Shown here piece by piece: positions 1,662 through 45,997 of a stretch of 45,997 nucleotides of DNA (position 1 is the first letter of the stretch; each line of letters begins with the position of its first letter). The notes under the pieces were generated by a model that was not told where the DNA came from, did no database searches, and was given only the letters and a program-made list of their open reading frames with translations. The position numbers and the translations under genes are program-made. Source of the stretch: Burkholderiaceae bacterium (GTDB taxonomy: Bacteria > Pseudomonadota > Gammaproteobacteria > Burkholderiales > Burkholderiaceae_C). The stretch is taken from the NCBI GenBank assembly GCA_014879745.1, contig JACSRM010000227.1:1-45997 (forward strand), in the 5' to 3' direction.

Positions 1662-2594
1662 ATGCGATCGTCATCACCACCTGCCGCGAAGGCGCCCCCC
1701 GTCGGTGCCGCCACCGCCGACGCCGAGGCCCTGACGCATGCGGTCAACGCGCTGCTCGCGCCGATCGCGCAGCTCGCCGTCGCCAAGGGCATGCCGTGCT
1801 CGACGGTCGAGGCACTGCTGCGCAAGGCGTTCGTTCGCGCCGCGCGCGACGCGCATCCGAACCTCGCGCCGCAGCGCATGGTGAGCCGCATCGCGACCGC
1901 GACCGGCCTGAATCGCCGCGAGGTGACGCGCCTGACGCAGCACGACGCCATGCCCGCGCCGCGGCGCCCGCTGTCGGCTGAGGTCTTCGCGCGCTGGTCG
2001 AGCGATCCGCACTATCGCGATGCGAAAGGCCGCCCGCGCAAGCTCGCACGCCAGGGCCCGGCGCCGAGCTTCGAGGCGCTGGCGCAGTCGGTGACGCGCG
2101 ACGTGCACCCGCGCAGCCTGCTAGACGAACTGCTGCGTCTGGGGCTGGCCGCCGCCGACGCGGCGGACGACAGCGTCGCCCTGGTTCACGACGCCTTCGT
2201 GCCGCGCGGCGATGCCGCGCGCATGCTCGGCTTTCTGGGCGACAACGTCGGCGACCATCTGAGCGGCGCCGTCGCCAACGTGCTCGGCGACGGCCGTCGG
2301 CACTTCGAGCAGGCGGTGTTCGCCGACGAACTCTCGGCGCAGTCGCTCGAGGCGACGCGCGCGACGATCAGCGCGCAGTGGCACGCGCTCGCCGCCGCGC
2401 TCGTGCCGCAGCTCGAGGCCGCGATCGCAGCCGATCGCGCCGCGGGCCGCGCGCAGGACCAGCGCCTGCGCATCGGCCTCTTCAGCTACAGCCAACGCAT
2501 GCCCGACGACTCGGGCACGACGCCGGATGACGCGGCCATCCGGACGAACGAAGCTCTGCCGCCCATCCCCACAAACGAGAGAGACCGCTCATGA
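1662..2594 (+). CDS. DUF6502 family protein
   Basis: The ~310-residue protein resembles the DUF6502 family, whose biochemical role is not established. Residues about 25-85 are helical and include a segment like a winged-helix/HTH (CSTVEALLRKAF...MVSRIATATGLNRREVTRL), followed by an Arg/Pro-rich linker and a largely helical C-terminal region. I prefer the ATG at 1662 because an apparent -10 box covers 1649-1654, which excludes the in-frame TTG at 1626 and ATG at 1653 if that promoter is used. The gene ends in an ATGA overlap with the DUF5666 lipoprotein gene, a pairing I recall as common for these two families. The palindromes over its promoter suggest autoregulation, which is inference. Confidence 0.75.
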   Translation: MRSSSPPAAKAPPVGAATADAEALTHAVNALLAPIAQLAVAKGMPCSTVEALLRKAFVRAARDAHPNLAPQRMVSRIATATGLNRREVTRLTQHDAMPAPRRPLSAEVFARWSSDPHYRDAKGRPRKLARQGPAPSFEALAQSVTRDVHPRSLLDELLRLGLAAADAADDSVALVHDAFVPRGDAARMLGFLGDNVGDHLSGAVANVLGDGRRHFEQAVFADELSAQSLEATRATISAQWHALAAALVPQLEAAIAADRAAGRAQDQRLRIGLFSYSQRMPDDSGTTPDDAAIRTNEALPPIPTNERDRS

Positions 2595-3895
2595 GCACAC
2601 GCACTCCAGTCACCGGCATCGCGCCGCCGCCTGCCCCGCGCCGCCTGCTGCGCGCCGTATGCACCTTGTCGGCGGCAGCGCTGCTGCTCGCCTGCGGCGG
2701 CGGCGGGGGCGACGTCGCCGGTGTCGGCACCGGCGGCACCGGATCGTTCAGCATCGGCACCGTCACCGGCTTCGGCTCGGTCTTCGTCAACGGCGTGCGC
2801 TACGAAGACGACGGCGCGCGGCTGATCGACGACGACGGCACGGTGACGATCCTCGGCAGCAGCGCCAACCCGCTGCGCGTGGGCATGGTGGTCGAGGTCA
2901 CCGGCAGCGACGACGGCGGCGTCCGCAGCGCGACGCAGATCGCCTACGGCGCCGAGCTCGAAGGGCCGGTGACCGCGGTCGACGCCGCCGCCGGCACCTT
3001 CCGCGTCTTCGGCGTCACGGTGCGCACAACGTCGACGACGGTCTACGAAGATATCGCCGGTGTCGCGTCGCTCGCCGCCGGCAACGTGGTCGAGGTCCAC
3101 GGCCTGCCCGACAGCGCCGGCCGGATCGTCGCGACCCACGTCGAGCGCGAGGCGACGAGCGAGGCCGCCTACGCGGCGGACGGTGGCACCTACCGGCTGC
3201 GCGGGCCGGTCGACGGGCTCCTCAGTTCGTCGTCGGGCAGCACCTTCACGCTGCGCGGCGTCGCGATCCGCACCGACGGCGCAACGCAACTCGACGGCAC
3301 GCCGACCGAAGGCGCCTCGGTCAGCGTGCGCCTGAACCCGACGCTGCAGTCCGACGGCCGCTATCTCGCCCAGCGCGTCAAGGTGCGCAGCGCGTCGTTC
3401 GACGATCTGCCCTCTTCCGCTGAGGCCGAGATCGAAGGCTACGTCAGCGATCTCGATGCGAGCGCCGGCAACTTGAGCGTTGCCGGCTATCCGGTGCGGC
3501 TCGCGGCGAACGTCGCCTACGAGGACGGCACCGCCGCCGACCTGAAGAACGGCGTGCGCATCGAGGCCAAGGGCAGCGTCACCAACGGCGTGCTGGTCGC
3601 GGCGCGGATCGAGTTCGAATCGCTCGACGACGATGACGACGGCGATGACGACGAGGTGCCGGGCGGGCTGCCCGAGTTCGAGTTCAAGGGCACGGCCGCG
3701 TGCATCGAATGCGGCGCCAGCAGCGGCAGCTTCGGCATCAAGGGCGTCACCGTGACCTACGACGCGCGCACCGAGTTCGACGACGGCCTGAGCGGCACGA
3801 CACTCGAAGGCCGCATCGTCGAGGTCGAGGCCGTGGCCGAGACGAGCACGGGGGGCACCGTCTACCGCGCGACGAAGATCGAGCTCGACGACTGA
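2591..3895 (+). CDS. DUF5666 domain-containing lipoprotein
   Basis: A 434-residue secreted protein with an N-terminal hydrophobic stretch and a lipobox (LLLAC, Cys at about residue 36) followed by a Gly-rich spacer, so it is probably a lipoprotein. The mature part is a series of similar beta-rich repeats of 60-90 residues built on GxVTxFGSVFVNGVRY / EGPVTAVDAAAGTFRVFGVTV / EIEGYVSDLDASAGNLSVAGYPV, the DUF5666 pattern, each likely a small OB-like barrel. An acidic run (DDDDDGDDDE) lies at about residues 343-353. Function is unknown. It is translationally coupled to the DUF6502 gene upstream. Confidence 0.8.
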   Translation: MSTRTPVTGIAPPPAPRRLLRAVCTLSAAALLLACGGGGGDVAGVGTGGTGSFSIGTVTGFGSVFVNGVRYEDDGARLIDDDGTVTILGSSANPLRVGMVVEVTGSDDGGVRSATQIAYGAELEGPVTAVDAAAGTFRVFGVTVRTTSTTVYEDIAGVASLAAGNVVEVHGLPDSAGRIVATHVEREATSEAAYAADGGTYRLRGPVDGLLSSSSGSTFTLRGVAIRTDGATQLDGTPTEGASVSVRLNPTLQSDGRYLAQRVKVRSASFDDLPSSAEAEIEGYVSDLDASAGNLSVAGYPVRLAANVAYEDGTAADLKNGVRIEAKGSVTNGVLVAARIEFESLDDDDDGDDDEVPGGLPEFEFKGTAACIECGASSGSFGIKGVTVTYDARTEFDDGLSGTTLEGRIVEVEAVAETSTGGTVYRATKIELDD

Positions 3896-34093: not shown

Positions 34094-36028
34094 TCAGGCG
34101 CTGGTCGATGCCGCGGACGGCCGGGTGACGGCCGACGGCACGAAGGCGTCGGTGAAGCAAAAGCCCTCGCCCAGCCCCTGCTCGATGAAGGCCGGCACCG
34201 CCGCCTCGACCATCTTGACCGAGCCGCAGACGTAGACCTCGTGCTGGCGCAAGTCGGGGAAGTCGGCCAGCATCGCCTCGTGGACGAGCCCGGTGCGCCC
34301 GCTCCAATGGCCCTGCGGATCCGGCTCCGAGAGGACCGGAACGAAGCGGAAGCACGGGTTCTCGCGCTGCCACTGCTCGGCAAGCGCGATCGCATACAGA
34401 TCGTCCTGCTTGCGAACACCCCAGTAGAGCCACATCGGCCGCGTGAGGCCGCGCGCGAAGGCATCCTCGACGATGCTCTTGATCGGCGCGAAGCCGGTCG
34501 CACCGGCAACGAACAGGATCGGGTGCGCGCTGTCGCTGAGCGTGAAGTGGCCGAGCGGCCCCTCGATGCGCAGCGTGTCGCCGACCTTCATCGACGTGAA
34601 GACGGCGCCGGTGAAGCGCCCGCCCGGGATGCGCCGCACGTGCAGTTCGATCTGGCCTTGCTGCTGCGGCGGGTTGGCGAACGAGAACGCGCGCCGTTGC
34701 CCGTCTTCGAGGATGATGTTGATGTACTGGCCGGCCTTGAACGGCAGCGTCGCGCCCTGCGGGAGCGAGAGCATGAGCCGGATCACCTCGGGCGCGAGGC
34801 GCTCCATGCTCTCGACGCGGACATCGAACTCGTGGATCGCGGCGAGTGCGGCGCGCGCGTCGGCCTCGACCTCGATGACGACGTCGGAGAGCGCCGTCGC
34901 GCAGCACATCAAGGCCTGGCCGCGGGCACGCGCGGCCTCGGGCAACGCACTCGGCTGGTAGGGCCCGAGATCGACGTTGCCGTGCAGCACGGTGCACAGG
35001 CACACGCCGCAGCCGCCGTTGCGGCACTCGTACGGCAGTTCGAGGCCATTGCGCAACCCGGCGTCGAGCAGCGTCTCGCCGCTGCGCACCGGCAGCGGAT
35101 CGCTCGTGCCGCTCGCGTGGTGCACCTCGAGATGAAAGTCCTGCGCGCGCTTGCGGCCGAACTTCGGCGGCAGCCACGGCAGCAGCACGAGCACGCCGGT
35201 GGCGCCGACGAGCAGCGCCCAGACCTGGCCGATTGGCCAGACCGAGACGAGCGGCAGCACGGCGAGGTAGAACCAGTCGAACTGCAGCGTCGTCACCGCC
35301 TCGCCGAGGTTGGCCGCGCCGCCCTGGCTCAGCACCGGACGCAGCGCCGACAGCAGCAGCAGCGTGATGATCACGCTTGTCATGATCGGCCGCGGCGGGT
35401 TGGTGCGCGCCTTCGGCACGCGCTGGACGTGGACCCATTGCACGAGCAGCAGCACGAGCGAGATGCCGATGTGCATGAACGCGAGCAGCGAGAAGAAGCG
35501 GTCGTTGACGCTGTCGGGGTAGATGAAGTTGCGCATCAGCGTGCCGCCGAAGCCGGGCAACCAGTCGAACCACTCGAAGGCAGCGACGATCGTGTACTGC
35601 GCGAGGTGGTCCCACGGCAGCATGAAGCCGGTGATGCCCGCCGAGTAGACGAGCCAGATCAGCACCACGCCGGTCACCCACGAAAACCAGCGGAAACCGC
35701 GGAAGTGGTTGAACGCGAAGTGGCGCACCATGTGGATCAGCATCGTGATGACGAAGCCGTCCGAGGCGTAGCGGTGGATGCTGCGCAGCACGCCGCCGGC
35801 GAACCACTGCCCGTGCGTCAGGCTCTCGACCGAGGTATAGGCGTCGGGGACGCCGGTCTCGAAGAACGCATACAGGTAGAGCCCGGTTGCGGCGACGACC
35901 CAGAACAGGAAGAAGCTGATCGCGCCGAGGTGGTAGAGCGGATTGAGCCGGTCGCCGAAGGCGGCGTTGAAGACCGCCTCGACCCGCATGAACAGCCATT
36001 GCAGGCCGCGTTGCAGAGCTTTGAGCAT
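34094..36028 (-). CDS. Cytochrome b / [2Fe-2S] ferredoxin / FAD-NAD(P) reductase fusion
   Basis: A 644-residue three-part membrane protein. Residues 1-205 are a bc1-type cytochrome b N-terminal domain with two bis-His heme sites (His85/His186 and His99/His200, x13 spacing in helices B and D) and the quinol-site-like GFMLPW. Further TMs follow to about 288. Residues 300-390 are a plant-type [2Fe-2S] domain (Cys335, 340, 343 and 375/376). Residues 400-632 are a ferredoxin-reductase module: RAFSFANPP for FAD, VAGATGFAPI and VCGSVKM for NAD(P). This would connect quinone, hemes b and NAD(P)H in one chain; direction is unknown. Start 36028 fits the domain; an upstream ATG would lie inside repeat B. 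Elements B and C bracket the gene. Confidence 0.85.
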   Translation of the reverse strand: MLKALQRGLQWLFMRVEAVFNAAFGDRLNPLYHLGAISFFLFWVVAATGLYLYAFFETGVPDAYTSVESLTHGQWFAGGVLRSIHRYASDGFVITMLIHMVRHFAFNHFRGFRWFSWVTGVVLIWLVYSAGITGFMLPWDHLAQYTIVAAFEWFDWLPGFGGTLMRNFIYPDSVNDRFFSLLAFMHIGISLVLLLVQWVHVQRVPKARTNPPRPIMTSVIITLLLLSALRPVLSQGGAANLGEAVTTLQFDWFYLAVLPLVSVWPIGQVWALLVGATGVLVLLPWLPPKFGRKRAQDFHLEVHHASGTSDPLPVRSGETLLDAGLRNGLELPYECRNGGCGVCLCTVLHGNVDLGPYQPSALPEAARARGQALMCCATALSDVVIEVEADARAALAAIHEFDVRVESMERLAPEVIRLMLSLPQGATLPFKAGQYINIILEDGQRRAFSFANPPQQQGQIELHVRRIPGGRFTGAVFTSMKVGDTLRIEGPLGHFTLSDSAHPILFVAGATGFAPIKSIVEDAFARGLTRPMWLYWGVRKQDDLYAIALAEQWQRENPCFRFVPVLSEPDPQGHWSGRTGLVHEAMLADFPDLRQHEVYVCGSVKMVEAAVPAFIEQGLGEGFCFTDAFVPSAVTRPSAASTSA

Positions 36029-36034
36029 CAGTAA

Positions 36035-36273
36035 CCCCGGATCCGGCAGTTGGACGCGCCCGAGCGGGCCGCCCTCGGGTGCGATAGCAAGGCGCAAACC
36101 GCAGCGATAGCACCCGCTATCGCGAGGATGTGCAACGCCGCGAGCGGACTCGAGGGCGGCTCGATCGGGTGCGCAGCGCTGTCACCCGGGCGATGGGCGT
36201 GGTCGTGGGAACGAATGACGACAGGCATGGACATTTCCGGCGAGAGCGCAGCGGTCAGCTGCCGGACCCGGGG
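36035..36273 (+). repeat. 239-bp structured palindromic element (copy B)
   Basis: Ends CCCCGGATCCGGCAGTTG (from 36035) and CAGCTGCCGGACCCGGGG (to 36273) pair at 18 of 20 positions. The core at 36086-36141 is GCAAGGCGCAAACCGCAGC, hairpin GATAGC-ACCC-GCTATC, GCGAGGATGTGCAACGCCGC. A further hairpin (GGGTG/CACCC) follows. The right end overlaps the last codons and stop of the upstream heme-copper-like gene. Orientation is opposite to copy C, so the pair flanks the 34094-36028 gene. Confidence 0.82.
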
Positions 36274-37685
36274 TCGGTCCTGCGCCGCAGCGCGCCGATG
36301 ACGACGACGACGAACAGCAGGCCGCCGACGATGGCGATCAGGCCGCCCAGCCCCATCAGCCCCATGCCGGCGATCTCGGCGCTGCTGCGCAGCACCTGCT
36401 CGGTACCGGCGACCTTGCGCTGCACGCCGTAGCCGCCCGACCAGACGAGGCCGACGATGTGCAGCAGCTGCCCGAAGCCGTAGAGCGCGGGCTGCCAGGT
36501 CGCGAGCCGGCCCTGCGGCGTGCCGTAACCCATGCGCGGCAGCAGGTGGTAGACGAGCCCCATCAGCGCGAGCGTGACGCCGACGATGCAGCCGTGGTAG
36601 TGCGCCGGGATGCGCACGTTGCTGCCGCTGATGAAGATGCCGATCACGCCGCCGGCGCCGAACAGCAGGACCGAGGCCACCAGCGCCGAGCGCAGCGGCC
36701 GCGCCTGCAGCGTCGCCGCCGGTGCGCCGGCAAGCGCGGCGACGACGGCGAGCGCGATCGGCACGATCGCGACCCCGCCGCCCAGGCGCATCGCCCAGGT
36801 CAGCGCGTCGCGGTGCTCGACCGACGCGATATCGTGCGCGAGGTAGGCATACGGCGTGACGAAGACGCTGACGAGCGCGAGCATGAACATCAGCAACGTG
36901 ACGCGCGGGCTGAGCGCGACGCGCGCGCCCGACGCCCCGGCGAGCCAGAGCCAGGCGACGAGCATCAGCAGCGTCCACGTGAACTGCAGCGCATGGCCGC
37001 CGCCCCAGAACAGGATCTCGTAGTACGCGCGGCCCTCGAGCGTGAGCGGCAGCACGGCGAACGACCAGCCGAAGGCGAGCAGCGCGACGGCGGTCGCGAC
37101 GACGCTCGCGTTCAGCCCGAAGCGCAGCGCGCCGCCGCCGTCGAAGCTCGCGCCCAGGCGCGGCGCGAGCCACAGCGAGCGCAGCACGAGCAGCGCGGTG
37201 CCGACCGCGAACAGCAGCAGCCCGCCGAGGAAGGCCGCGCCGTCGAGCACCGGGATGTAGTTGGCCATCACCGCCTCGCCGCTGCCGACGAAGGGCGCCA
37301 GCGACATCGCGAGCGCGCCGGCCGCGGCCAGGCCGAGCGCGGTCCACGCCAGACCGAGCGCGCGCGGCGCGCCGATCAGGCTCCACAGCAGGCCGGCGAT
37401 GGCAATGAACCAGACGAGGACCGAAAGATCGACGTGGACGACGAGCGCGACGCGAAAGAAGTCGGCGCTCGGCAGCAGCTTGTTGACCCCCGGCGTTCGC
37501 GCCAGCACGAGCAGGACCGAGAACACGCCGGACAGGACGAGCGCACCGAGACCGAGTGCGAGCCAGCCGCGCGCCAGGTCGCGGCGGGCGTCGGCCGGCA
37601 CCGCGAGCGTGTATTCGGTGTCGTGGCGCGCCTGCGGCAGCGCGGCTGCGCGCCCGGCGGGCACGGGGGCGAGGTGCGCGCTCAT
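36255..37685 (-). CDS. Heme-copper oxidase-like subunit I lacking apparent CuB His pair
   Basis: A 476-residue, ~12-TM protein of the heme-copper oxidase subunit I superfamily. Low-spin heme ligands His84 (VVHVDLSVLVWF) and His364, and high-spin heme ligand His362 (PAHYHGCIVG), are in place. Helix VI has His231 (GGGHALQF) but no Tyr four residues on. In helix VII, where CuB enzymes have an adjacent His-His pair after TP, this protein reads TPYAYLAHD, so Leu-Ala replaces the pair (His284 and His291 are nearby). By eye it most resembles cbb3/NorB-like sequences. It may have lost CuB and act in heme electron transfer or other chemistry. The start overlaps the preceding stop (ATGA). The last codons lie in repeat B. 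Confidence 0.78.
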   Translation of the reverse strand: MSAHLAPVPAGRAAALPQARHDTEYTLAVPADARRDLARGWLALGLGALVLSGVFSVLLVLARTPGVNKLLPSADFFRVALVVHVDLSVLVWFIAIAGLLWSLIGAPRALGLAWTALGLAAAGALAMSLAPFVGSGEAVMANYIPVLDGAAFLGGLLLFAVGTALLVLRSLWLAPRLGASFDGGGALRFGLNASVVATAVALLAFGWSFAVLPLTLEGRAYYEILFWGGGHALQFTWTLLMLVAWLWLAGASGARVALSPRVTLLMFMLALVSVFVTPYAYLAHDIASVEHRDALTWAMRLGGGVAIVPIALAVVAALAGAPAATLQARPLRSALVASVLLFGAGGVIGIFISGSNVRIPAHYHGCIVGVTLALMGLVYHLLPRMGYGTPQGRLATWQPALYGFGQLLHIVGLVWSGGYGVQRKVAGTEQVLRSSAEIAGMGLMGLGGLIAIVGGLLFVVVVIGALRRRTDPGSGS

Positions 37686-38200
37686 CGGAAGGTGATCCCG
37701 CCGCGCTGCGGATCGAAGTCGATCACCAGGATCTGCGCCGGCGCGAGCGTGACCGTCTTCTCGCTCTGGTAGTCGAAGCCGTCCTTGCGCGCATTGTCGT
37801 TGAGCCGCACCGCGAGCTGATGCGTGCCGGCCGGCACCGTCAGGCGCTGGTAGACCGACGAGGCGCCGTCGCGCGACAGGCCCGAGGGCGGCGCGACGTG
37901 GCGGATCGCCGGCTTGCCGTCGATATCGACCTCGACGACGACCGGCGAGCGCTCGCGCCCGCACTTCATCGGCGTGCGCATGTTGGGCGGCAGCTTGGCA
38001 AGCTCCTCCGGCGTGAGCTTGCGGCACTCGTCGACGCGCTGCGCCGCATGCGTGAAGCTGAGCTTGATCAAGGCCTCGTCGTCGGCCAGATGGCGGTACG
38101 TCGGCCAATGCGAGAAGACGCCGATGATGAGCGCGAAGACCCCATACAGCAGGGCCTGGCCGACCCAGGAGAAGCGCTTGCGCGCTGGAGTTTCATCCAT
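37682..38200 (-). CDS. Membrane-anchored protein of unknown function in the oxidase cluster
   Basis: A 172-residue protein I cannot assign. One N-terminal transmembrane segment (about 13-30, WVGQALLYGVFALIIGVFS) anchors a periplasmic domain of ~140 residues. It contains two Cys (58 and 80, ECRKLTPEELAKLPPNMRTPMKC) that could form a disulfide or bind metal, then a beta-sandwich-like region (VVVEVDIDGKPAIRHVAPPSG...YQRLTVPAGTHQLAVRLNDNARKDGFDYQSEKTVTLAPAQILVIDF). Start 38200 overlaps the upstream stop by 8 bp (ATGGATGA); 38215 is an alternative. Overlaps on both sides indicate a fixed stoichiometric partner of the neighbouring membrane proteins. Confidence 0.75.
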   Translation of the reverse strand: MDETPARKRFSWVGQALLYGVFALIIGVFSHWPTYRHLADDEALIKLSFTHAAQRVDECRKLTPEELAKLPPNMRTPMKCGRERSPVVVEVDIDGKPAIRHVAPPSGLSRDGASSVYQRLTVPAGTHQLAVRLNDNARKDGFDYQSEKTVTLAPAQILVIDFDPQRGGITFR

Positions 38201-39740
38201 ACCGAAGTTTCTCATGTGAAGGCCCCGCGGCGGCCGATACCCGCAGTCCGAGTACGGCAAGCGCCGCCTCGACGGCGGCCTCGTCGCCGGCGTCGGCCCA
38301 GACCGTTGCCACCCGTTCGGCCGGCACCGAACGGCGCAGATGCGGCTCGCGCAGACCGAGCAGGCGTTCGCGCGTCCAGCGCTGACCGAGGCGGAAGGTG
38401 CAGCCGCCTTCGCTGCACCCGGTGACGAGCACGCCATCGGCGCCGCCGCGCAACGCATATTCGACGAACGAAGGCGGCAGCATGCCGGTGCAGATCAGGC
38501 TGAACGCGGCGACGCCGGCGCCGGCGAGCGATTCGACGCGCGCGCCGTGATCGCAGCCGATGACGACAAGCCTCGGTCGATCGTCCGGCATGCGTGCAAG
38601 CGCCGCTTCCACGCGCTCGCGCAGGTCGTTGATCGGCGACTGCGGCATGTCGATGCCGGTGACGAGCGCGGCGCCCTTGCGAAACGGCGTCGACGACGGG
38701 CAGGCGCCGACGCAGATGCCGCAGCTCGCGCACAGGTCGGCGTCGACCTGCGCCATCTGGCGCCCGATGCGTCCGTTCGGGTGCGTGACCATCGTGATCG
38801 CCGTATACGGGCAGTCCTCGAAGCAGCGCCGGCAGCCGTTGCAGTTGGCGGGGTCGACGACCGCCACCGGCGCCGCCGCAGGCTGTGGCAGGAAGGGCAG
38901 CGCGAAGAGCGCGATCAGCGTGCCGGCGAGGAGCAGCCACACCGCGCCCGCCGAAGTCGCGTAGACGAGCGGATGGATGAAGAGCAGCCACCAGTCGAGC
39001 GCGAGCGTCGCCGGCACGACCGAGAGGTCGGCCGGGCCCTGGCTGTGCACCGGCAGCACGAGCGCCACCGCGATGAGCGACGCCGTGACCCCGATCGCGA
39101 GCCGCAGCGGCGGAAAGGCCTCGGCACGCGCCAGACGCTGGATGTGAAACCACATCGCGAAGACGATGAAGAGCGCCACCCCGAGATGGACGAAGATGAA
39201 GAGCGAGAACAGCCGGTCGCCGACGCTTTCGACGCCGATGAAGTTGCGCGTCAGCGGCGAGCCGAAGATCGGCAGCCAGTCGAGGAATTCGGCGGTCGCG
39301 ATCGCCGAGAACTGGCCGAGCTTGTCCCAGTTCAGCCAGAAGCCGCCGATCGCGGAGGCGAATGCAAGCGGCAGCAGCGGCACGCCGGTCAGCCACGAGA
39401 AGCGGCGAACACCGCTGTAGCGGCCGAACAGCCATTCGCGCAGCAGATGCGCGAGCATCGTGACGACGAACGCATCGGCCGCATAGCGATGCAGGCTGCG
39501 CAGCCAGCCGCCGAGAAACCATTGCTCGCGTGAAAGTCCGTCGATCGAGACGTAGGCCCCGGTGGCCGAGGTATCGAGCACGGCATAGAGGTAGATGCCG
39601 GTCACCGCGAGCAGCCAGAAGCACAGGAAGGCGAGCGCGCCGAGGTGTCGCAGCGGGTTGAGCGCACCGCCGCCGACGACGCGGTCGAGTGCCGTCTCGG
39701 CGCGCTGCCAGAGCGCGCCGCAACGCTCGCGCGGATTCAT
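38193..39740 (-). CDS. Cytochrome b / 2x[4Fe-4S] / MvhD-type iron-sulfur fusion
   Basis: A 515-residue fusion. Residues 1-205 form a cytochrome b N-terminal domain with His84/His185 and His98/His199, at almost the same positions as in the 34094-36028 protein, so the two are paralogues there. More TMs reach about 285. Two [4Fe-4S] motifs follow: Cys300/303/306/310 (CNGCRRCFEDCP) and Cys337/340/343/347 (CASCGICVGACP). Residues 390-465 resemble MvhD/FlpD (hydrogenase/heterodisulfide-reductase delta subunit): Cys396, Cys417 (LICTGMLPPSFVEYAL), Cys442 and Cys447 (GCSEGGC). MvhD links flavin-based bifurcating enzymes to partners; here it is on a quinol-type cytochrome. It overlaps senC by 4 bp. Confidence 0.83.
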   Translation of the reverse strand: MNPRERCGALWQRAETALDRVVGGGALNPLRHLGALAFLCFWLLAVTGIYLYAVLDTSATGAYVSIDGLSREQWFLGGWLRSLHRYAADAFVVTMLAHLLREWLFGRYSGVRRFSWLTGVPLLPLAFASAIGGFWLNWDKLGQFSAIATAEFLDWLPIFGSPLTRNFIGVESVGDRLFSLFIFVHLGVALFIVFAMWFHIQRLARAEAFPPLRLAIGVTASLIAVALVLPVHSQGPADLSVVPATLALDWWLLFIHPLVYATSAGAVWLLLAGTLIALFALPFLPQPAAAPVAVVDPANCNGCRRCFEDCPYTAITMVTHPNGRIGRQMAQVDADLCASCGICVGACPSSTPFRKGAALVTGIDMPQSPINDLRERVEAALARMPDDRPRLVVIGCDHGARVESLAGAGVAAFSLICTGMLPPSFVEYALRGGADGVLVTGCSEGGCTFRLGQRWTRERLLGLREPHLRRSVPAERVATVWADAGDEAAVEAALAVLGLRVSAAAGPSHEKLRYG

Positions 39741-40642
39741 CCCTCGGCGCTCGCGCGCGGTGGAAACTGACCGTTGGCCTTCGGCTTCTGCGCCGCGCCT
39801 TGCGTGCGCCGCAGGCGGCGGCTGGCGCGCAATTCGCCGACGAAGAACCAGAGCATCGCGATGACGAAGGTCACGCCGCCGGCGATCTCGAACGCGAGCG
39901 CGTAGCTGACGCGATATTCGCCGGTCGCCGGATCGTAGATCGAGCACAGGATGCGCACGCGGTCGACGAGGTCGGCCAGGTCGAGCCGCTGCGGCAGCGG
40001 CTCGTTGCGCAGCAGCTGGCGGATCGGCTCGGCGAGTTCATCGGCGCTGAAGTCTTCACCGTACACCTGGCGGTAGATGCGGCCCTGGCCATCGACCACC
40101 GTGACCTGCAGCAGGTGGTCGAAGCCCGCCTGGGTTGGCGTGTAGGCGAATCCGAAGTCGCGCGTCAGCGCCTCGACGGCCGACGGATGCGGGCTCAGGA
40201 ACTCCCAATTCGCCGCGGTGATGCGTTGCTGCGCGGCAAACGCCTTCATCGACGCCGGCGAATCGGCCGGTAGATTGAAGCCGATGCTGACGATGTTGTA
40301 CTGCCGCGGGTCCATGCTGCGGCCCATGCCCTCGATCGCCGCGGCGATCGCGCGCGTGCTCGTCGGGCAGACCTGGAAGCAGCCGGTGTACATGAAATTC
40401 ACGAGCAGCGGCTTGCCGCGGTAGTCGGCGAGGCGCACCGGCTTGCCGGCGCGATCGAGCAGCGTGTAGTCGCCGATCTTGCTGCCGATCGCGCCCTGGC
40501 TGATGCGCAGCGCCTCGGCCGGGTCGAGCGTGGCGCGCGAGACGGGTGCCTCGTCGGCGACCGCGCTGGCGACGAGCCCGGCCAGACAGATTCCGAGCAG
40601 GGTGACCAAACCCCGGCAACTGCGGGCGGCAGGCTTGTGCAT
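39737..40642 (-). CDS. SCO1/SenC copper chaperone with C-terminal membrane anchor
   Basis: A 301-residue SCO-family protein. A signal sequence (about 1-29) precedes the thioredoxin-like domain with GDYTLLDRAGKPVRLADYRGKPLLVNFMYTGCFQVCP: copper-binding Cys88 and Cys92 (CxxxC) and distal His176 (GFDHLLQV). After the domain a linker leads to a second transmembrane segment (about 247-268) and a basic tail, an extension not usual in SCO proteins. SCO proteins load the CuA site of subunit II. A CuA-type subunit II is encoded at 43277-43816 in the same run. SenC also accompanies norSY in ammonia oxidisers. Confidence 0.9.
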   Translation of the reverse strand: MHKPAARSCRGLVTLLGICLAGLVASAVADEAPVSRATLDPAEALRISQGAIGSKIGDYTLLDRAGKPVRLADYRGKPLLVNFMYTGCFQVCPTSTRAIAAAIEGMGRSMDPRQYNIVSIGFNLPADSPASMKAFAAQQRITAANWEFLSPHPSAVEALTRDFGFAYTPTQAGFDHLLQVTVVDGQGRIYRQVYGEDFSADELAEPIRQLLRNEPLPQRLDLADLVDRVRILCSIYDPATGEYRVSYALAFEIAGGVTFVIAMLWFFVGELRASRRLRRTQGAAQKPKANGQFPPRASAEG

Positions 40643-40652
40643 GCCGCAAATC

Positions 40653-41549
40653 CTAGCGCAACACGCCGTCGAGGCTCGCTCCGGCCAGCACCAGACTGAG
40701 TTGAAGCAGCGATGCGAAGAAGGAAGCCATCGCGGTCTTGCGGCTTGGCCGGCGCGCCAGCAGCCAGGACTTGTGCAGGAACACCGCGCCGCCGATGGCC
40801 GCTCCCGCGAAGTACCAGACTCCGGCGCCGAAGAGCACCGGCAGCAGCGACGCCGACACCAGTGCGACCGTGCTCCAGAAGACGGCCTGGGCCGCGCGCT
40901 GCGTGCCGACGACGACCGGCAGCATCGGCACGCCGGCTGCGGCATAGTCATCCTGGTTCGCGATCGCGAGACTCCAGAAGTGCGGCGGCGTCCACAGGAA
41001 GAGCACGAGCGCGAGCAGCAGTGGGAGCGCTCCGATCGCGGGGTCGACCGCAGCGGCGCCGGCGAGCACCGCGAAGCTGCCGGCAAGGCCGCCGACGACG
41101 ATATTGAGCCAGCTGCGCCGCTTGAGCCACACGGTATAGACGACCGCGTAGAAAAAGGCGCCGAGGAAGACATAGAGCGCGGCCCAGACGTTGAGCGCCC
41201 ACCACGCCGCGGCAACCGACAACGCGAGCAATGCACCGATCACGACCAGCCAGAGCGGAGTATGCGGCAGCGCGCCGGTGACGAAGGCGCGCTTGCGGGT
41301 GCGCGCCATGAGCCGATCGGACTCGGCTTCGACATACTGGTTGAATGCGCCTGCGCTCGCCGACGCCACCATCACCGAGACCGCGAGCACGAGCACCTGC
41401 GCCAGGCTCAGCGCCGGGCCCGGCGTGAAGGCAAAGCCGACCAGCGCGGTCAGCATGATCATCACGCCGATCCGCAGCTTGAACAGCCCGAGCACGTCGC
41501 GCACCAGCCGGGCCGGCGTGCGGGGCGCGAGTGCAAGGGCCGGCTTCAT
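40653..41549 (-). CDS. ctaB: Heme O synthase (protoheme IX farnesyltransferase)
   Basis: A 298-residue UbiA-type prenyltransferase with the Asp-rich motif NQYVEAESDRLMARTRKR (about 70-88), LNIVVGGLAGSFAVLAG, and LFLWTPPHFWSLAIANQDDYAAAGVPMLPVV, diagnostic of CtaB/CyoE. It farnesylates heme B to heme O. I prefer ATG 41549 over GTG 41552. It sits 13 bp after the subunit I gene and 10 bp before senC, so the terminal enzyme here may use heme O or A. Confidence 0.95.
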   Translation of the reverse strand: MKPALALAPRTPARLVRDVLGLFKLRIGVMIMLTALVGFAFTPGPALSLAQVLVLAVSVMVASASAGAFNQYVEAESDRLMARTRKRAFVTGALPHTPLWLVVIGALLALSVAAAWWALNVWAALYVFLGAFFYAVVYTVWLKRRSWLNIVVGGLAGSFAVLAGAAAVDPAIGALPLLLALVLFLWTPPHFWSLAIANQDDYAAAGVPMLPVVVGTQRAAQAVFWSTVALVSASLLPVLFGAGVWYFAGAAIGGAVFLHKSWLLARRPSRKTAMASFFASLLQLSLVLAGASLDGVLR

Positions 41550-41562
41550 CACCGCGTTCCGG

Positions 41563-43263
41563 TCAGGACAGGCCCCAGACCTGCGACAGGTACTTCCAGT
41601 TGATGAAGTAGTACAGCACGAAGGCGACGAAGAACACCATCGTCAGCACGAAGGTGCCGGGAGCGACGAAGCCGGCCGAGCCGTGGCTCTGTACCGCGAC
41701 GGTCGGCGCCGCGCGCGCCAGACGCACCGGCTTGGCACTCGTCGCGCCGCCTTCGAGTTTCTTGCCCCACAGCAGCGAACCGACCGTGATGTAGATGTAG
41801 ATCGCGCCGCCGACTATCGCGGCGACGCCGCCGACGCCGACCATTCCCATCATCAGGTAGGCCGCACCCGGCCATTCGTAGGCCATCGGCGCGCCGGCGA
41901 AGGCCATGTCCCAGTGCCGGCGGGCGACGCCGAGCGTGCCGGCGCCCATCATCACGAGGCAGAAGAAATACATCGAGAAGCCGAAGATGTACGGCTGCAG
42001 CCTGGCCAGCCCCGGGTTGATCATCTCGCGGCGGAACAGCACCGGGATCAGGTAGTAGGTCAACGCCATGAACGTCAGCGTCGTTCCGACGACGACCGTG
42101 GCGTGGAAGTGCCCCGGCACGTAGATCGTGTTGTGGATCAGCATGTTGAGCTGTTCGGTGCCCATCATCACGCCGGTGATGCCGCCCAGGAAGCCGAAGC
42201 CGACGAGCGCGATGAATACGCCCGAGAACACCGGGTTGCCCCACGGCGCCTTGCGCAGCCACTCGAAGAGGCCCTTGTTGTAGCCCTTGGCGCGCTGCGC
42301 GACTTCCATCGCGCCCGGCACGCTGAGCGCGTGGATCATCGACGCGAGCACCGCGAAGTACATGAAGTAGCTCGTATTGACGACCTTCCACGAGGTGCTG
42401 ACGCCCGGATCGGCGAGGATGTGGTGGGCGCTGGCGAGCTGCAGGAAGACGATGTAGAGCAGGAAGGCACCACGGCTCACGCGCTCGGACATCGGCTTCG
42501 CGCCGAACGCGATCGCCGCGACCAGATACCAGATCGAGATGTGCGCCGCGACGTTGATCTGCTGCGACGAGTGCCCGAACGCCCACCAGATGACGCGATA
42601 GGCGAGCGGATCGACGTTCTCGATCAGGCCGATCGACATCAGCCAGGTCGGAATCAGGATCATCGCGCCCGAGACGATCGTGAAGACGGCGATGATCGCC
42701 GCCGTCGTCGCGCCGAACGTGACGAGCGGCACCGAGCCGTCGTAGGTGTTGTCGCGCTTGGCGACGACGAGCGTGCCGAAAAAGACGAAGCACGCGATCA
42801 GCGCGCCGACGGCGAACAGGATCAGGCCGAGATAGAAGCTCTGCGCCGCCATCATCGGCACGTAGCTCGTCATCATCACGCTCGACTCGCCGGCATAGAC
42901 GGCGTAGTTGTTGACGACGGCGCCGATCACCATCAGTGCGAAAGCGAACCAGGCGATCTTCGGCGTCGCGATCCGGCAGCGCAGCAGCACCGACGACGCG
43001 AAGTACAGCACCGCGATCTCGAAGAAGATGATCCAGAAGATCAGCATGTTGATGCCGTGCGCGGTGAGCACTTGATAGAAGGTGTCGGCCTCGAGCCAGT
43101 GGATCGCGGGCCACCGCGTCAACACGACGCCGATCGCGAGAATGCCGCCGATCAGCAGGCAGACGACGGCGACGAACGCGTTGGCGAAGATCAGCTTCTC
43201 GGCGTTGGCCTCGAATTGCAGGCCCGACCTGGGGCAGGTCCGGTACGTGATGGCGCTGGACAT
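41563..43263 (-). CDS. Heme-copper subunit I lacking the catalytic Tyr; putative NO reductase (NorY/sNOR-like)
   Basis: A 566-residue, ~13-14-TM subunit I. Ligands: His69 (TAHGINMLIFW) and His387 for low-spin heme, His385 (VPGHFHA) for high-spin heme, His231 and His280/His281 for CuB (FGHSSQQ; ASAHHILADPG). The helix order and HHILADPG/WKVVN/HNTIYVPGHFH resemble B-type (ba3) oxidases, but ba3 has GHPIVY with the His-cross-linked Tyr four residues after the CuB His; here that position is Gln235. Loss of this Tyr is a mark of NO reductases. With the CuA subunit II and SenC the layout resembles norSY-senC. NO reduction is therefore my best inference; an unusual O2 reductase is not excluded. Confidence 0.85.
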   Translation of the reverse strand: MSSAITYRTCPRSGLQFEANAEKLIFANAFVAVVCLLIGGILAIGVVLTRWPAIHWLEADTFYQVLTAHGINMLIFWIIFFEIAVLYFASSVLLRCRIATPKIAWFAFALMVIGAVVNNYAVYAGESSVMMTSYVPMMAAQSFYLGLILFAVGALIACFVFFGTLVVAKRDNTYDGSVPLVTFGATTAAIIAVFTIVSGAMILIPTWLMSIGLIENVDPLAYRVIWWAFGHSSQQINVAAHISIWYLVAAIAFGAKPMSERVSRGAFLLYIVFLQLASAHHILADPGVSTSWKVVNTSYFMYFAVLASMIHALSVPGAMEVAQRAKGYNKGLFEWLRKAPWGNPVFSGVFIALVGFGFLGGITGVMMGTEQLNMLIHNTIYVPGHFHATVVVGTTLTFMALTYYLIPVLFRREMINPGLARLQPYIFGFSMYFFCLVMMGAGTLGVARRHWDMAFAGAPMAYEWPGAAYLMMGMVGVGGVAAIVGGAIYIYITVGSLLWGKKLEGGATSAKPVRLARAAPTVAVQSHGSAGFVAPGTFVLTMVFFVAFVLYYFINWKYLSQVWGLS

Positions 43264-43276
43264 TTGTGCTCCTCTG

Positions 43277-43816
43277 TTATTTCACGTACATGTGGCTCAC
43301 CATCGAGTGATGGTTGATGCCGCAGAACTCGTTGCACACGATCGAGAACCGGCCGGACTGGTTCGGCGTGACGTTGACGACATGCTCGAAGCCGGGAACG
43401 ACCTGGATGTTGATATTGGTCGGCTGCAGCGAGAAGCCGTGGTTGTAGTCGAGCGAGGAAAGGTGCAGCCGGTAGGTCTTGCCCTTCTCGAGCTCGATGA
43501 TCGGCCACCAGCTCCACAGCCGCGCGACGAGGTAGACGTCGCCCCCCGGCGGCGGCGCGACGACCGGGATCTTGTCCTCGCCTTCGGTGCGCACCGTGTA
43601 CTTGTCGACCACCGCCTGCGCCTTCGCGACGAAGGCATCGGGCGTGATGCGGTAGGTCTCGGTCGACAGGTTCTGCTTGCCGTAGATGTGCCAGCCGACC
43701 ATCATGAAGAACATCACCATGCACCAGGCGAAGGCGATCGCGATCCAGGTGCCTTCGACCCGGTCCAGCGGATGCTTCCACCACAGTCTCTCTGCCGGTG
43801 GCAGGATTGCGCTCAT
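43277..43816 (-). CDS. CuA-containing subunit II (NorS/CoxB-like)
   Basis: A 179-residue cupredoxin-type subunit II with one N-terminal transmembrane anchor (about 23-43) and a periplasmic CuA domain. CuA ligands are complete: His126 (DYNHGFS), Cys161, Glu163, Cys165, His169 and Met172 (CNEFCGINHHSM). The single TM and short length fit ba3-type subunit II rather than the two-TM A-type. It receives electrons from a cytochrome c or cupredoxin and passes them to the subunit I encoded 13 bp downstream. Confidence 0.92.
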   Translation of the reverse strand: MSAILPPAERLWWKHPLDRVEGTWIAIAFAWCMVMFFMMVGWHIYGKQNLSTETYRITPDAFVAKAQAVVDKYTVRTEGEDKIPVVAPPPGGDVYLVARLWSWWPIIELEKGKTYRLHLSSLDYNHGFSLQPTNINIQVVPGFEHVVNVTPNQSGRFSIVCNEFCGINHHSMVSHMYVK

Positions 43817-43862: not shown

Positions 43863-44018
43863 TCACTTCGCCATCGGGATGGTGAAGATGTCGATCAGGC
43901 CCCACGCGATGTACAGGACCATCGGCACCATGACACCGATGAACAACAGCAGGAATGGGTTGTCGAGCAGTTGTTGCAACCAGGGCACGGGTTCGTTGTC
44001 GTCGTGGTTCGAGCTCAT
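43863..44018 (-). CDS. 51-residue membrane peptide heading the NO reductase-like operon
   Basis: A short gene with an excellent ribosome-binding site (AGGAGG, minus strand of 44021-44030 region) and one transmembrane segment (PFLLLFIGVMVPMVLYIAWGL, about 19-39) after an acidic, Trp/Pro-containing N-terminus (MSSNHDDNEPVPW). Position and size resemble small accessory subunits of heme-copper enzymes (CcoQ, ba3 subunit IIa). It lies 46 bp upstream of the subunit II gene. No sequence family is recognised. Confidence 0.75.
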   Translation of the reverse strand: MSSNHDDNEPVPWLQQLLDNPFLLLFIGVMVPMVLYIAWGLIDIFTIPMAK

Positions 44019-44328
44019 GAATGTCCTCCTTCGGTCGGGGTGCGGCGCATGAAGCAATCCGGCGGCATTCTGCTGGCGGTGCCGTCAACTTGATTTGACC
44101 CAGCACAAGAACGCGGAGATTGCCGGCCGGCATCCGGGCGCCCCCTAGGGATGACCACTACGCCCTGCGTTGCGCCGGAATCACACCCGACAATCGGTCG
44201 ACACCTCCGATCCGAAACCGCAATGAAGCGAACTCACGCGCACCCCGTTGGCCGGCCCCCGAACGCGACGCGACGGCCGCGGCGCCGCTGGAAGCCTCGA
44301 AGATTTCCGGCCGCCGGGAGGGTTTGAC
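44019..44328. other. 310-bp divergent promoter region
   Basis: Lies between the 51-residue peptide gene (minus) and ctaA (plus). It contains an inverted repeat GTCAA (44084-44088), CTTGAT, TTGAC (44095-44099). Only a weak 7/10 match to the Fnr/Dnr consensus is present, and no NsrR-like box is seen. No coding sequence is convincing. Confidence 0.55.
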
Positions 44329-45282
44329 GTGGCCTCGCCCGACCGCAGCCGCACGCTGTTGCGCCGCATGGCGCTGCTGCTCACCGTGCTCGTGCTCGTG
44401 ATCACGAGCCTGAGCGCCTACATCCGGCTGTCGCGCGCCGGGCTGTCGTGTGCCGACTGGCCGCAGTGCTACGGCGAGCGCCTGCGCCAGGCGCAGCAGG
44501 GCGTCTCGGCGACGGCCGGCGACAGCGACGCGGTCGCCGCGGCGCGCTTCGCGCATCGCATCGTCGCCAGCGCGGCCCTGCTGATCATCGTCGCGATCGT
44601 CGCCGTGTGCTTTTCCGCGCGCCCGGTGTGGCGGGCGGAGGGCGGCGTCGCGCTGGCGCTGCTCGCGCTCGCGCTCGGCCTCGCCGTGCTCGGACGATGG
44701 TCCAGCGACGCGCGCGTGCCGGCGGTCGCACTCGGCAATCTGCTGGGCGGCTTCGCGATGTTCGCGCTGTGCTGGCGCCTGCTGCTGGCTCCTGGCGCCG
44801 CACTGGCGCGCGGTGCGCGCGTGTGGGCGATGCTTTGCGTGCTGCTGCTCGCGACACAGATCGCGCTCGGCGGACTGGTCAGCGCCACCTACGCGGCGAC
44901 GAGTTGCGGCGGCTTCGCCGATTGCCTGTCGGCGGCGCGCAGCCTGCCCTGGAGTGCGCTCGATCCGTGGCGCGAACCGGTGCTCGACGGCGCCGTGCCG
45001 ACGAATGCGTCGGGCGCGCTGGCCCAGACCCTGCACCGCGGCGCGGCGCTGCTCGTGCTGGTCGCGACCGCGCCGCTCGCGCTCGTGGCCTGGCGCAGCC
45101 GCCGCCGTCTGGCCAGCGCGCTGCTGCTGGTGCTGCTGGCCGGCACGGCCGGCCTCGGCATCGCGATGGCGCGCCACGGCCCGACGCTCGCGATGGCGCT
45201 GGCGCACAACCTCGCCGCCGCCCTGCTGCTGGCGACGCTGTTCGCGTTGGCGCGCGGGCCCGCGACAGCCGACGAGCGTTGA
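44329..45282 (+). CDS. ctaA: Heme A synthase (COX15/CtaA family)
   Basis: A 317-residue, eight-TM protein. RLSRAGLSCADWPQCYG near the start (about 33-49), heme-ligand His residues in RFAHRIVAS and QTLHRGAALL, and the second Cys-containing loop TSCGGFADCLS match CtaA. It oxidises heme O to heme A. I chose GTG 44329 because GGGAGG precedes it by six bases and upstream codons lack a ribosome-binding site. It is divergent from the operon holding ctaB. Confidence 0.9.
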   Translation: MASPDRSRTLLRRMALLLTVLVLVITSLSAYIRLSRAGLSCADWPQCYGERLRQAQQGVSATAGDSDAVAAARFAHRIVASAALLIIVAIVAVCFSARPVWRAEGGVALALLALALGLAVLGRWSSDARVPAVALGNLLGGFAMFALCWRLLLAPGAALARGARVWAMLCVLLLATQIALGGLVSATYAATSCGGFADCLSAARSLPWSALDPWREPVLDGAVPTNASGALAQTLHRGAALLVLVATAPLALVAWRSRRRLASALLLVLLAGTAGLGIAMARHGPTLAMALAHNLAAALLLATLFALARGPATADER

Positions 45283-45334
45283 CGCAGATCATGGCCACTA
45301 CAATTTCCGGATTCGATCGTCATGGAGAGGAACG

Positions 45335-45997
45335 ATGGCGCCGCGCCCGTTCGATGTGCCTGGGTTCTTGTCGGTGCTGCCACTCTTCAATGACCTCAGC
45401 CCCGAGGAGTTGAAGCAGATCGCCCAGGGGTGCGCGCTGCGCCGTGTGGCGCGCGGCGAGATCCTGTACCGGGTCGGCGATCCGTGTGAAGAGTTTCACG
45501 TCATCGTCACCGGCCAGATCAAGCTGTTCCTGCTCTCGCCGTCGGGTCAGGAGAAGGTCGTCGAGCTGATCGGCGCCGGCCAGAGCTTCGCCGAGGCGGT
45601 CATGTTCAGCGATCGGCCCTACATCCTGAACGCGCAGGCGCTCACCGACTCGCTGGTGCTGACGGTCTGCAAGCAGGCGGTGCTCGCCGAGATCGAGCGC
45701 GATCACCGTTTCGCGCTGCGCATGATTGCCGGCCTCGCGCGGCGCCTGCACGGGCTCGTCAACGATGTCGAGGCCTATTCGCTGCACTCCGGGCTGCAGC
45801 GCGTGATCGGCTTCCTGTTGCGCGACCAGGCGCTCGAGGACGGCGAAGCAGGCGCGGTGCGAACCGTCTCGTTGCCGGTCAGCAAGGCGACGATCGCGTC
45901 GCGCCTGTCGCTGACACCCGAGTATTTTTCGCGCGTGCTGCACGAACTCGAGGCGCGCGGCCTGATCGAGATCGACCGCCGCGACATCCGCATTCTC
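45335..45997 (+). CDS. Crp/Fnr-family regulator, Dnr-like (3' end beyond window)
   Basis: 221 residues are visible. The N-terminal cyclic-nucleotide-binding-type beta barrel (LFNDLSPEELKQIAQGCALRRVARGEILYRVGDPCEEFHVIVTGQIKLF) and dimer helix precede the HTH at about 183-203 (SKATIASRLSLTPEYFSRVL). The recognition helix ExxSR pattern (EYFSR) predicts TTGAT-type sites. The N-terminal Cys cluster of Fnr is absent, so it is more like Dnr, which senses NO through heme. A GAGAGG ribosome-binding site precedes the ATG at 45335. It could regulate the NO reductase-like operon nearby. The end of the protein is cut off. Confidence 0.88.
   Translation, partial: MAPRPFDVPGFLSVLPLFNDLSPEELKQIAQGCALRRVARGEILYRVGDPCEEFHVIVTGQIKLFLLSPSGQEKVVELIGAGQSFAEAVMFSDRPYILNAQALTDSLVLTVCKQAVLAEIERDHRFALRMIAGLARRLHGLVNDVEAYSLHSGLQRVIGFLLRDQALEDGEAGAVRTVSLPVSKATIASRLSLTPEYFSRVLHELEARGLIEIDRRDIRIL

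Follow-up and report, generated by a model that had tools for sequence, protein, structure and literature searches.

Do four unusual membrane redox genes in a burkholderial genome make an enzyme of their own, or do they belong to something larger? The genes lie at positions 34094–39740 of the window, a 45,997-nucleotide stretch of DNA from a Burkholderiaceae bacterium (GenBank assembly GCA_014879745.1, contig JACSRM010000227.1). They encode two cytochrome b fusions, a protein with one transmembrane (TM) helix and a heme-copper subunit I homolog that lacks two of the three CuB ligands. An earlier note, made from the sequence of this stretch, had proposed that the four form a new complex. We found instead that they are the second, accessory half of a conserved operon, the first half of which encodes an intact heme-copper enzyme with the signature of eNOR, a nitric oxide (NO) reductase.

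The four genes close an operon with the eNOR signature

All four genes were present on the minus strand with the domains that the earlier note had assigned to them. What it had missed was the operon's start 4.3 kb upstream: nine minus-strand genes follow one another between 44018 and 34094, opening with a complete heme-copper enzyme set (44018–39737). We refer to the cytochrome b~2x[4Fe-4S]~MvhD fusion as b~M, to the cytochrome b~[2Fe-2S]~FAD/NAD(P)H reductase fusion as b~F, to the one-helix protein as T and to the CuB-less subunit I homolog as HCOx. From first to last, the genes are:

43863–44018, minus strand: one-TM subunit of 51 amino acids (aa), subunit IIa-like; homologs hold the same position in other loci, with 10 residues invariant in 68 sequences
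43277–43816, minus strand: eNOR subunit II by signature (cupredoxin, CuA); COX2 Pfam match; H126, C161, E163, C165, H169 and M172 invariant in 84 sequences
41563–43263, minus strand: eNOR subunit I by signature, a B-family heme-copper enzyme; COX1 3e-61
40653–41552, minus strand: heme O synthase CtaB; TIGR01473 above cut-off
39737–40642, minus strand: SCO/SenC copper chaperone; PF02630; C88, C92 and H176 invariant
38193–39740, minus strand: b~M, 515 aa; Cytochrome_B 1e-17, 2x[4Fe-4S], FlpD/MvhD 2e-12
37682–38215, minus strand: T, 177 aa, one TM helix and a predicted extracytoplasmic beta-sandwich; no Pfam family
36255–37685, minus strand: HCOx, 476 aa, predicted CuB-less paralog of eNOR subunit I; COX1 2e-12
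34094–36028, minus strand: b~F, 644 aa; Cytochrome_B, Fer2, FAD_binding_6 and NAD_binding_1; full-length homologs in many genomes

The description of the four genes as mostly overlapping was borne out, as b~M and T share 23 bases and T and HCOx share 4, with a gap of about 226 bases before b~F. Their predicted cofactor ligands are kept across relatives, which argues against a chance assembly.

The operon is conserved in Beta-, Gamma- and many Alphaproteobacteria, and the co-occurrence that the earlier note had predicted was seen across many genera. Among 80 named loci, which lean towards b~F because b~F stood first in the cytochrome b query used to retrieve them, the usual order in Burkholderiales, Rhodocyclales, Steroidobacteraceae and Lysobacterales is small subunit-II-I-(CtaB)-SCO-b~M-T-HCOx-b~F. 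We then counted genes in 274 genomes from 222 genera of Gammaproteobacteria (in the sense of GTDB). Subunit I of eNOR was found in 24 genomes, T in 25 and both in 23 (Fisher 4e-30, for genomes that are not independent), such that T accompanies 23 of the 24 eNOR-positive genomes. The two genomes with T only are 73–77% complete, and in the lone genome with eNOR only, eNOR sits at a contig end. HCOx occurred in 30 genomes, comprising 19 of the 24 with eNOR and 11 others. Among alphaproteobacterial eNOR clusters with adequate context, 9 of 14 have b~M-T; the module is common but not obligatory there.

The enzyme was assigned from subunits I and II. Subunit I has its best PDB matches among B-family (ba3-type) oxidases (7deg, 2e-53; 1ehk, 5e-45), and it retains each of the three CuB histidines as well as the heme ligands: H231, H280, H281, H385 and H387 are invariant in 83 sequences, as is Q235, and H69 is kept in 82 of 83. 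In O2 reductases, a tyrosine is cross-linked at the active site. Here its position, in the TM6 motif G-H-S-S-Q-Q, is taken by Q235 in 83 of 83 relatives. The residue found at this position separates the groups: glutamine marks eNOR, asparagine sNOR, aspartate gNOR and tyrosine the O2 reductases (PMC8756737). The CuA-bearing subunit II that characterizes eNOR is likewise present, with H126, C161, C165, H169 and M172 invariant in 84 sequences. Since the glutamine signature matches the published criteria, we assign the operon to eNOR by signature. The same group has been named ba3-a1, and NO reductase activity has been reported for it (PMC8879329). The SCO gene is a further likeness, having been noted for ba3-a1 clusters (PMC6431628).

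The sNOR enzymes of ammonia oxidizers (norSY-senC-orf1) also pair a B-family enzyme with SCO/SenC in one operon. We rejected an sNOR assignment, as the motif residue is glutamine and not the asparagine of an ammonia-oxidizer homolog (L180), and the enzymes are distant, at about 25% identity.

What sets this operon apart from eNOR as described is the reductase-fused cytochromes b, T and the CuB-less paralog. No description of such an accessory module was found in the literature searched, which did not include the main eNOR study (PNAS 2024, PMC11214002), where it would most likely be shown. Provisionally, then, the module is new, while its parts are all of known kinds and eNOR itself was already known.

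Cytochrome b and T recur as a unit with exchangeable tails

The earlier note had recognized two paralogous cytochromes b, which it called quinol-type, each joined to its own kind of soluble electron-transfer chain. This description held, with the cytochromes b being bc1-type. The AlphaFold model of the cytochrome b (predicted local distance difference test score, pLDDT, 87) has a bc1-type fold with six TM helices. It aligns with a mycobacterial (actinobacterial) bc1 cytochrome b over 262 residues (VIA Z 24.1, root-mean-square deviation 3.0), and the profile also matches cytochrome b6 (2e-30) and b6f subunit IV (3e-4). The four heme-b histidines, H85, H99, H186 and H200, are invariant. D251-W252 followed by an aromatic residue aligns with PVWY, the Qo motif in the host's bc1 cytochrome b, and D251-W252 is invariant. 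The operon's cytochromes share the diheme core and helices A–F with those of bc1 and b6f complexes and have a possible Qo-like loop, but differ in having six helices only, D-W in place of PEWY and a reductase fused at the cytosolic end. The Rieske and cytochrome c1 partners of the bc1/b6f complexes have no counterpart here: no Rieske or cytochrome c1/f gene is among the nine operon genes, and the host's own bc1 is located elsewhere. Six TM helices and bc1 topology would place the fused reductase on the cytosolic side, probably beside heme bH.

In the tails, the 12 cysteines of the ferredoxin-MvhD part are invariant (85 sequences) and the four cysteines of the 2Fe-2S domain of b~F are conserved (81 sequences). 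The MvhD/FlpD domain scores 47.5 bits in Pfam against a cut-off of 22.3, with C111, C132, C157 and C162 invariant. This is the same four-cysteine [2Fe-2S] domain as in MvhD/FlpD of HdrABC-MvhADG and Flx, but b~M attaches it to a cytochrome b in the membrane. The operon, to which the search for partners was confined, encodes neither HdrA nor a hydrogenase, and the MvhD-type bifurcation that the earlier note had brought into play finds no footing there. A literature search for MvhD/FlpD together with a heme-copper enzyme or NO reductase gave a single table row, RME88945.1, an open reading frame with a cytochrome c domain, cytochrome b6, DMSOR-beta (Fe-S) and FlpD, listed without discussion (PMC8756737, Table A3). 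Compared by this listing alone, it resembles b~M in joining cytochrome b, [4Fe-4S] and FlpD in one protein and differs in carrying a cytochrome c domain; it may be a relative of b~M with an outer-side cytochrome c.

The fusions can stand in for each other. b~F takes the place of b~M in six loci (L087, L115, L127, L129, L135 and L155), and in three others (L120, L143 and L166) the order is b~F-T-b~M-T, with one T gene after each fusion. A tree of 83 sequences gives the b~F fusion a single origin (support 0.95). One genome has a third tail, a flavodoxin-FAD-NADP diflavin reductase on cytochrome b (L034:2972–5524, G156:C65); its cytochrome b is 97.6% identical over 954 bases to that of the same genome's b~M, marking a recent duplicate, and the fusion is absent from the only other genome available in that family. 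Because b~F can replace b~M and double clusters can carry two T genes, the likely working unit is T together with a cytochrome b, the cytosolic tail of which can be exchanged.

T itself is modeled with confidence (pLDDT 92) as a TM helix (10–36) and a beta-sandwich (41–177). C64, C85, several arginines and aspartates and one proline are invariant, and methionine and histidine are also conserved. It had no Pfam or PDB sequence match, and its structure had no Foldseek match at E<=0.001; the best VIA match, the HGSNAT luminal domain (Z 9.3), does not score far beyond what chance matches reach. An identity of T as a cupredoxin or CuA protein was considered and set aside, with no cupredoxin among the VIA matches listed, which does not exclude one.

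HCOx is an optional, CuB-less paralog of subunit I

The label CuB-less proved apt: the TM7 segment with two CuB histidines is missing in 26 of 26 homologs sampled. HCOx keeps H84, H231, H362 and H364, which cover the ligands of the low- and high-spin hemes and a single CuB ligand out of three. With the TM7 histidine pair missing, it cannot have an ordinary heme-copper site, and we rejected HCOx as a catalytic NO reductase or oxidase. The earlier note's tie to an NO- or O2-reacting enzyme therefore survives in part, in that an enzyme with the eNOR signature shares the operon, but the predicted reacting subunit is the intact subunit I upstream and not the CuB-less protein.

In a tree of small sampling, with no ba3 or gNOR reference included, 89 HCOx sequences and eNOR subunit I fall together (support 1.0), separated from A-family enzymes and an sNOR. 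HCOx is accordingly placed, by its sequence, as a predicted paralog of eNOR subunit I that is eNOR-associated but optional. It is absent from 5 of the 24 eNOR genomes, from most alphaproteobacterial loci and from some Accumulibacter clusters. Conversely, HCOx without eNOR (L043, L047, L049, L053 and others) frequently neighbors CtaB, SURF1 or other genes for oxidase maturation in clusters of ordinary cytochrome oxidases, with SURF1-like genes in L047 and L049. The company of CtaB and SURF1-like genes suggests that HCOx may have a wider role in oxidase biogenesis. A search of PLSDB for plasmid carriage of HCOx gave no match.

These patterns bear on the four genes as a unit. Only b and T are constant, while HCOx and b~F are optional and b~F can replace b~M, which is at odds with a fixed, self-standing complex. 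The earlier note held that independent occurrence of its genes would count against it; this is what we saw for HCOx, which also stands beside ordinary oxidase genes, and not for b and T.

FNR/DNR-type boxes precede the operon in relatives

We scanned the 250 bases upstream of the first gene in 101 regions for an FNR/DNR box (TTGAY-N4-RTCAA), with expectations from mononucleotide shuffles. A perfect box was found in 46 of 101 regions versus 0.1 expected, and a box with one mismatch in 30 of 101 versus 1.7 expected. Since these numbers are far above the shuffle expectation, the eNOR operon is predicted to be generally under FNR/DNR-type control. The features upstream of the operon in the window are:

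44095–44108, minus strand: weak FNR/DNR-box-like site, TTGTGCTGGGTCAA, with two mismatches, 90 bases upstream of the first gene
44248–45282, plus strand: ctaA (heme A synthase), divergent neighbor; PF02628 2e-29
45302–45997, plus strand: Crp/Fnr-family regulator, FtrB-like, reaching the window end; PF00027 and PF13545

The FtrB-like regulator, downstream of the divergent ctaA, is a candidate regulator of the eNOR operon.

A putative electron-input module for eNOR

What, then, could the accessory half do? We tentatively favor a module that carries cytosolic electrons through heme b to the quinone pool and eNOR. Each cytochrome b fusion together with T would form a membrane electron-transfer module. 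In b~F, electrons would pass from NAD(P)H to FAD, to [2Fe-2S] and to heme bH on the cytosolic side; in b~M, a soluble donor would reduce MvhD, from which electrons would reach heme bH by way of 2x[4Fe-4S]. From heme bH they would move to heme bL, a bc1-like quinone site and the quinone pool, and from the pool through cytochrome c and CuA to eNOR, which would reduce NO to N2O. HCOx would be a heme-bearing, catalytically dead and optional paralog aiding assembly or electron transfer. FNR-type reductase and diflavin modules normally draw electrons from NAD(P)H and pass them singly, so the direction is likely from cytosol to membrane. Three unrelated tails (ferredoxin-MvhD, FNR-type and diflavin reductase) on one cytochrome b count in favor of this reading, and RME88945.1, if a true relative, fits electron exchange with an outer-side c-type cytochrome. 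The most economical account is a module that serves eNOR by passing electrons from a reductant to quinone (or cytochrome c).

Several observations weigh against it. Five of the 14 alphaproteobacterial eNOR loci with adequate context have neither b nor T, and therefore eNOR can work without them. Conversely, b~M-T-b~F occurs without adjacent eNOR in L142, L147, L152, L153 and L160 (mostly Accumulibacter, with about 7–8 kb of upstream sequence). The proline and glutamate of the Qo motif PEWY are not kept in the cytochrome b, and T has no visible redox motif, which leaves heme bL without an apparent direct path to CuA. The window's own FNR/DNR box is weak, two-mismatch sites being expected in 18.6 of 101 shuffled regions. 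Separately, the gene calls of L147 and L153 hint at a possible 5' truncation of b~M.

A bolder form of the electron-input reading is that eNOR sits in a larger assembly, where cytosolic NAD(P)H or ferredoxin-type reductant would drive NO reduction via a bc1-type cytochrome b with an exchangeable reductase and, in many lineages, a CuB-less electron-transfer subunit. We consider this doubtful.

The strongest rival to electron input is a maturation role, which we regard as possible though on balance unlikely. Here electrons from the cytosol would cross the membrane through b and T and convert Cu(II) to Cu(I), or reduce thiols, so that the CuA and CuB sites of eNOR could be assembled, with HCOx helping heme or subunit assembly. 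The position of the block suits this, lying among CtaB and SCO directly behind the structural genes, much as ccoGHIS is placed relative to the cbb3 genes, and so do the two invariant cysteines and conserved methionine and histidine of T, the maturation genes beside lone HCOx and an electron source that appears interchangeable. There is precedent for membrane redox proteins in heme-copper enzyme maturation. CcoG, the cupric reductase of cbb3 assembly, joins membrane helices, 2x[4Fe-4S] and a periplasmic Ig-like domain (PMC7558416), similar in kind to the parts of b~M plus T, and CrpH, a heme-based PepSY_TM protein, supports heme-copper enzymes in a proposed role (PMC13038864). However, the membrane domains of both are unrelated to b~M and T, neither of which gave a sequence match to the CcoG/FixG family. 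Known metal reductases do not resemble the cytochrome b, which is of bc1 type and has a Qo-like region; a metal site in T would be putative; and the published RME88945.1 joins cytochrome b6-FeS-FlpD to a cytochrome c domain.

Far less probable is quinol bifurcation, in which quinol at the Qo-like site would give one electron to NO via eNOR and the other via bL and bH to MvhD or the FNR-type reductase, reducing ferredoxin or NAD(P)+. It would be suited by low-potential cytosolic modules on the heme bH side, by NO as a very strong oxidant and by a cytochrome b of bc1 type whose motif resembles Qo. However, neither a high-potential partner (Rieske or cytochrome c1) nor the usual bifurcating partners of MvhD are encoded in the operon, T has no redox motif, and the class of the diflavin tail in L034 normally runs outward from NADPH. 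The least likely account, towards which the earlier note leaned, is that the four proteins stand alone as a complex and use their CuB-less subunit to react with NO or O2. The genes do adjoin one another and are conserved across many Burkholderiales, but HCOx lacks the TM7 histidine pair in every homolog sampled and is missing from many clusters that keep b and T, and an intact eNOR is encoded in the same operon.

Genomic surroundings and host

In a draft genome of 4.5 Mb, the window makes up contig 399; its G+C content is 69.5%. Among relatives with names, the closest are an uncultured Burkholderiales bacterium (92%) and a metagenome-assembled genome of a Rhizobacter sp. (85% over cytochrome b). 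Downstream of the nine genes lies an ordinary SUF operon (SufB, SufC, SufD and SufS-like), and a protein with four DUF5666 repeats is encoded at 2591–3895. Elsewhere, the host encodes a cytochrome cd1 nitrite reductase, cbb3-type subunits, a split aa3-type subunit I and a separate asparagine-type (sNOR-like, GHMYIN) B-family enzyme (L234, G000:C360). By signature the host thus carries two non-canonical NO reductases, and this enzyme set is consistent with a denitrifier. The host also has an odd heme-copper subunit I (L235, G000:C10), with AHNLME in TM6 and only one of the two TM10 histidines (SGHTMT), adjoining a copper P-type ATPase-like gene.

Significance for eNOR biology

As a recently recognized NO reductase, eNOR is a possible source of N2O, and bacteria of wastewater, groundwater and soil, among them Candidatus Accumulibacter, carry related operons. 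T is a good marker, being nearly as diagnostic of eNOR as subunit I in the sampled Gammaproteobacteria. One bc1-type cytochrome b carrying three unrelated reductases in one operon context presents a natural case of modular electron wiring that is directly testable. If the accessory half is a dedicated NAD(P)H/ferredoxin input or a maturation module, then subunits I and II of eNOR considered alone would miss the control of electron supply or assembly.

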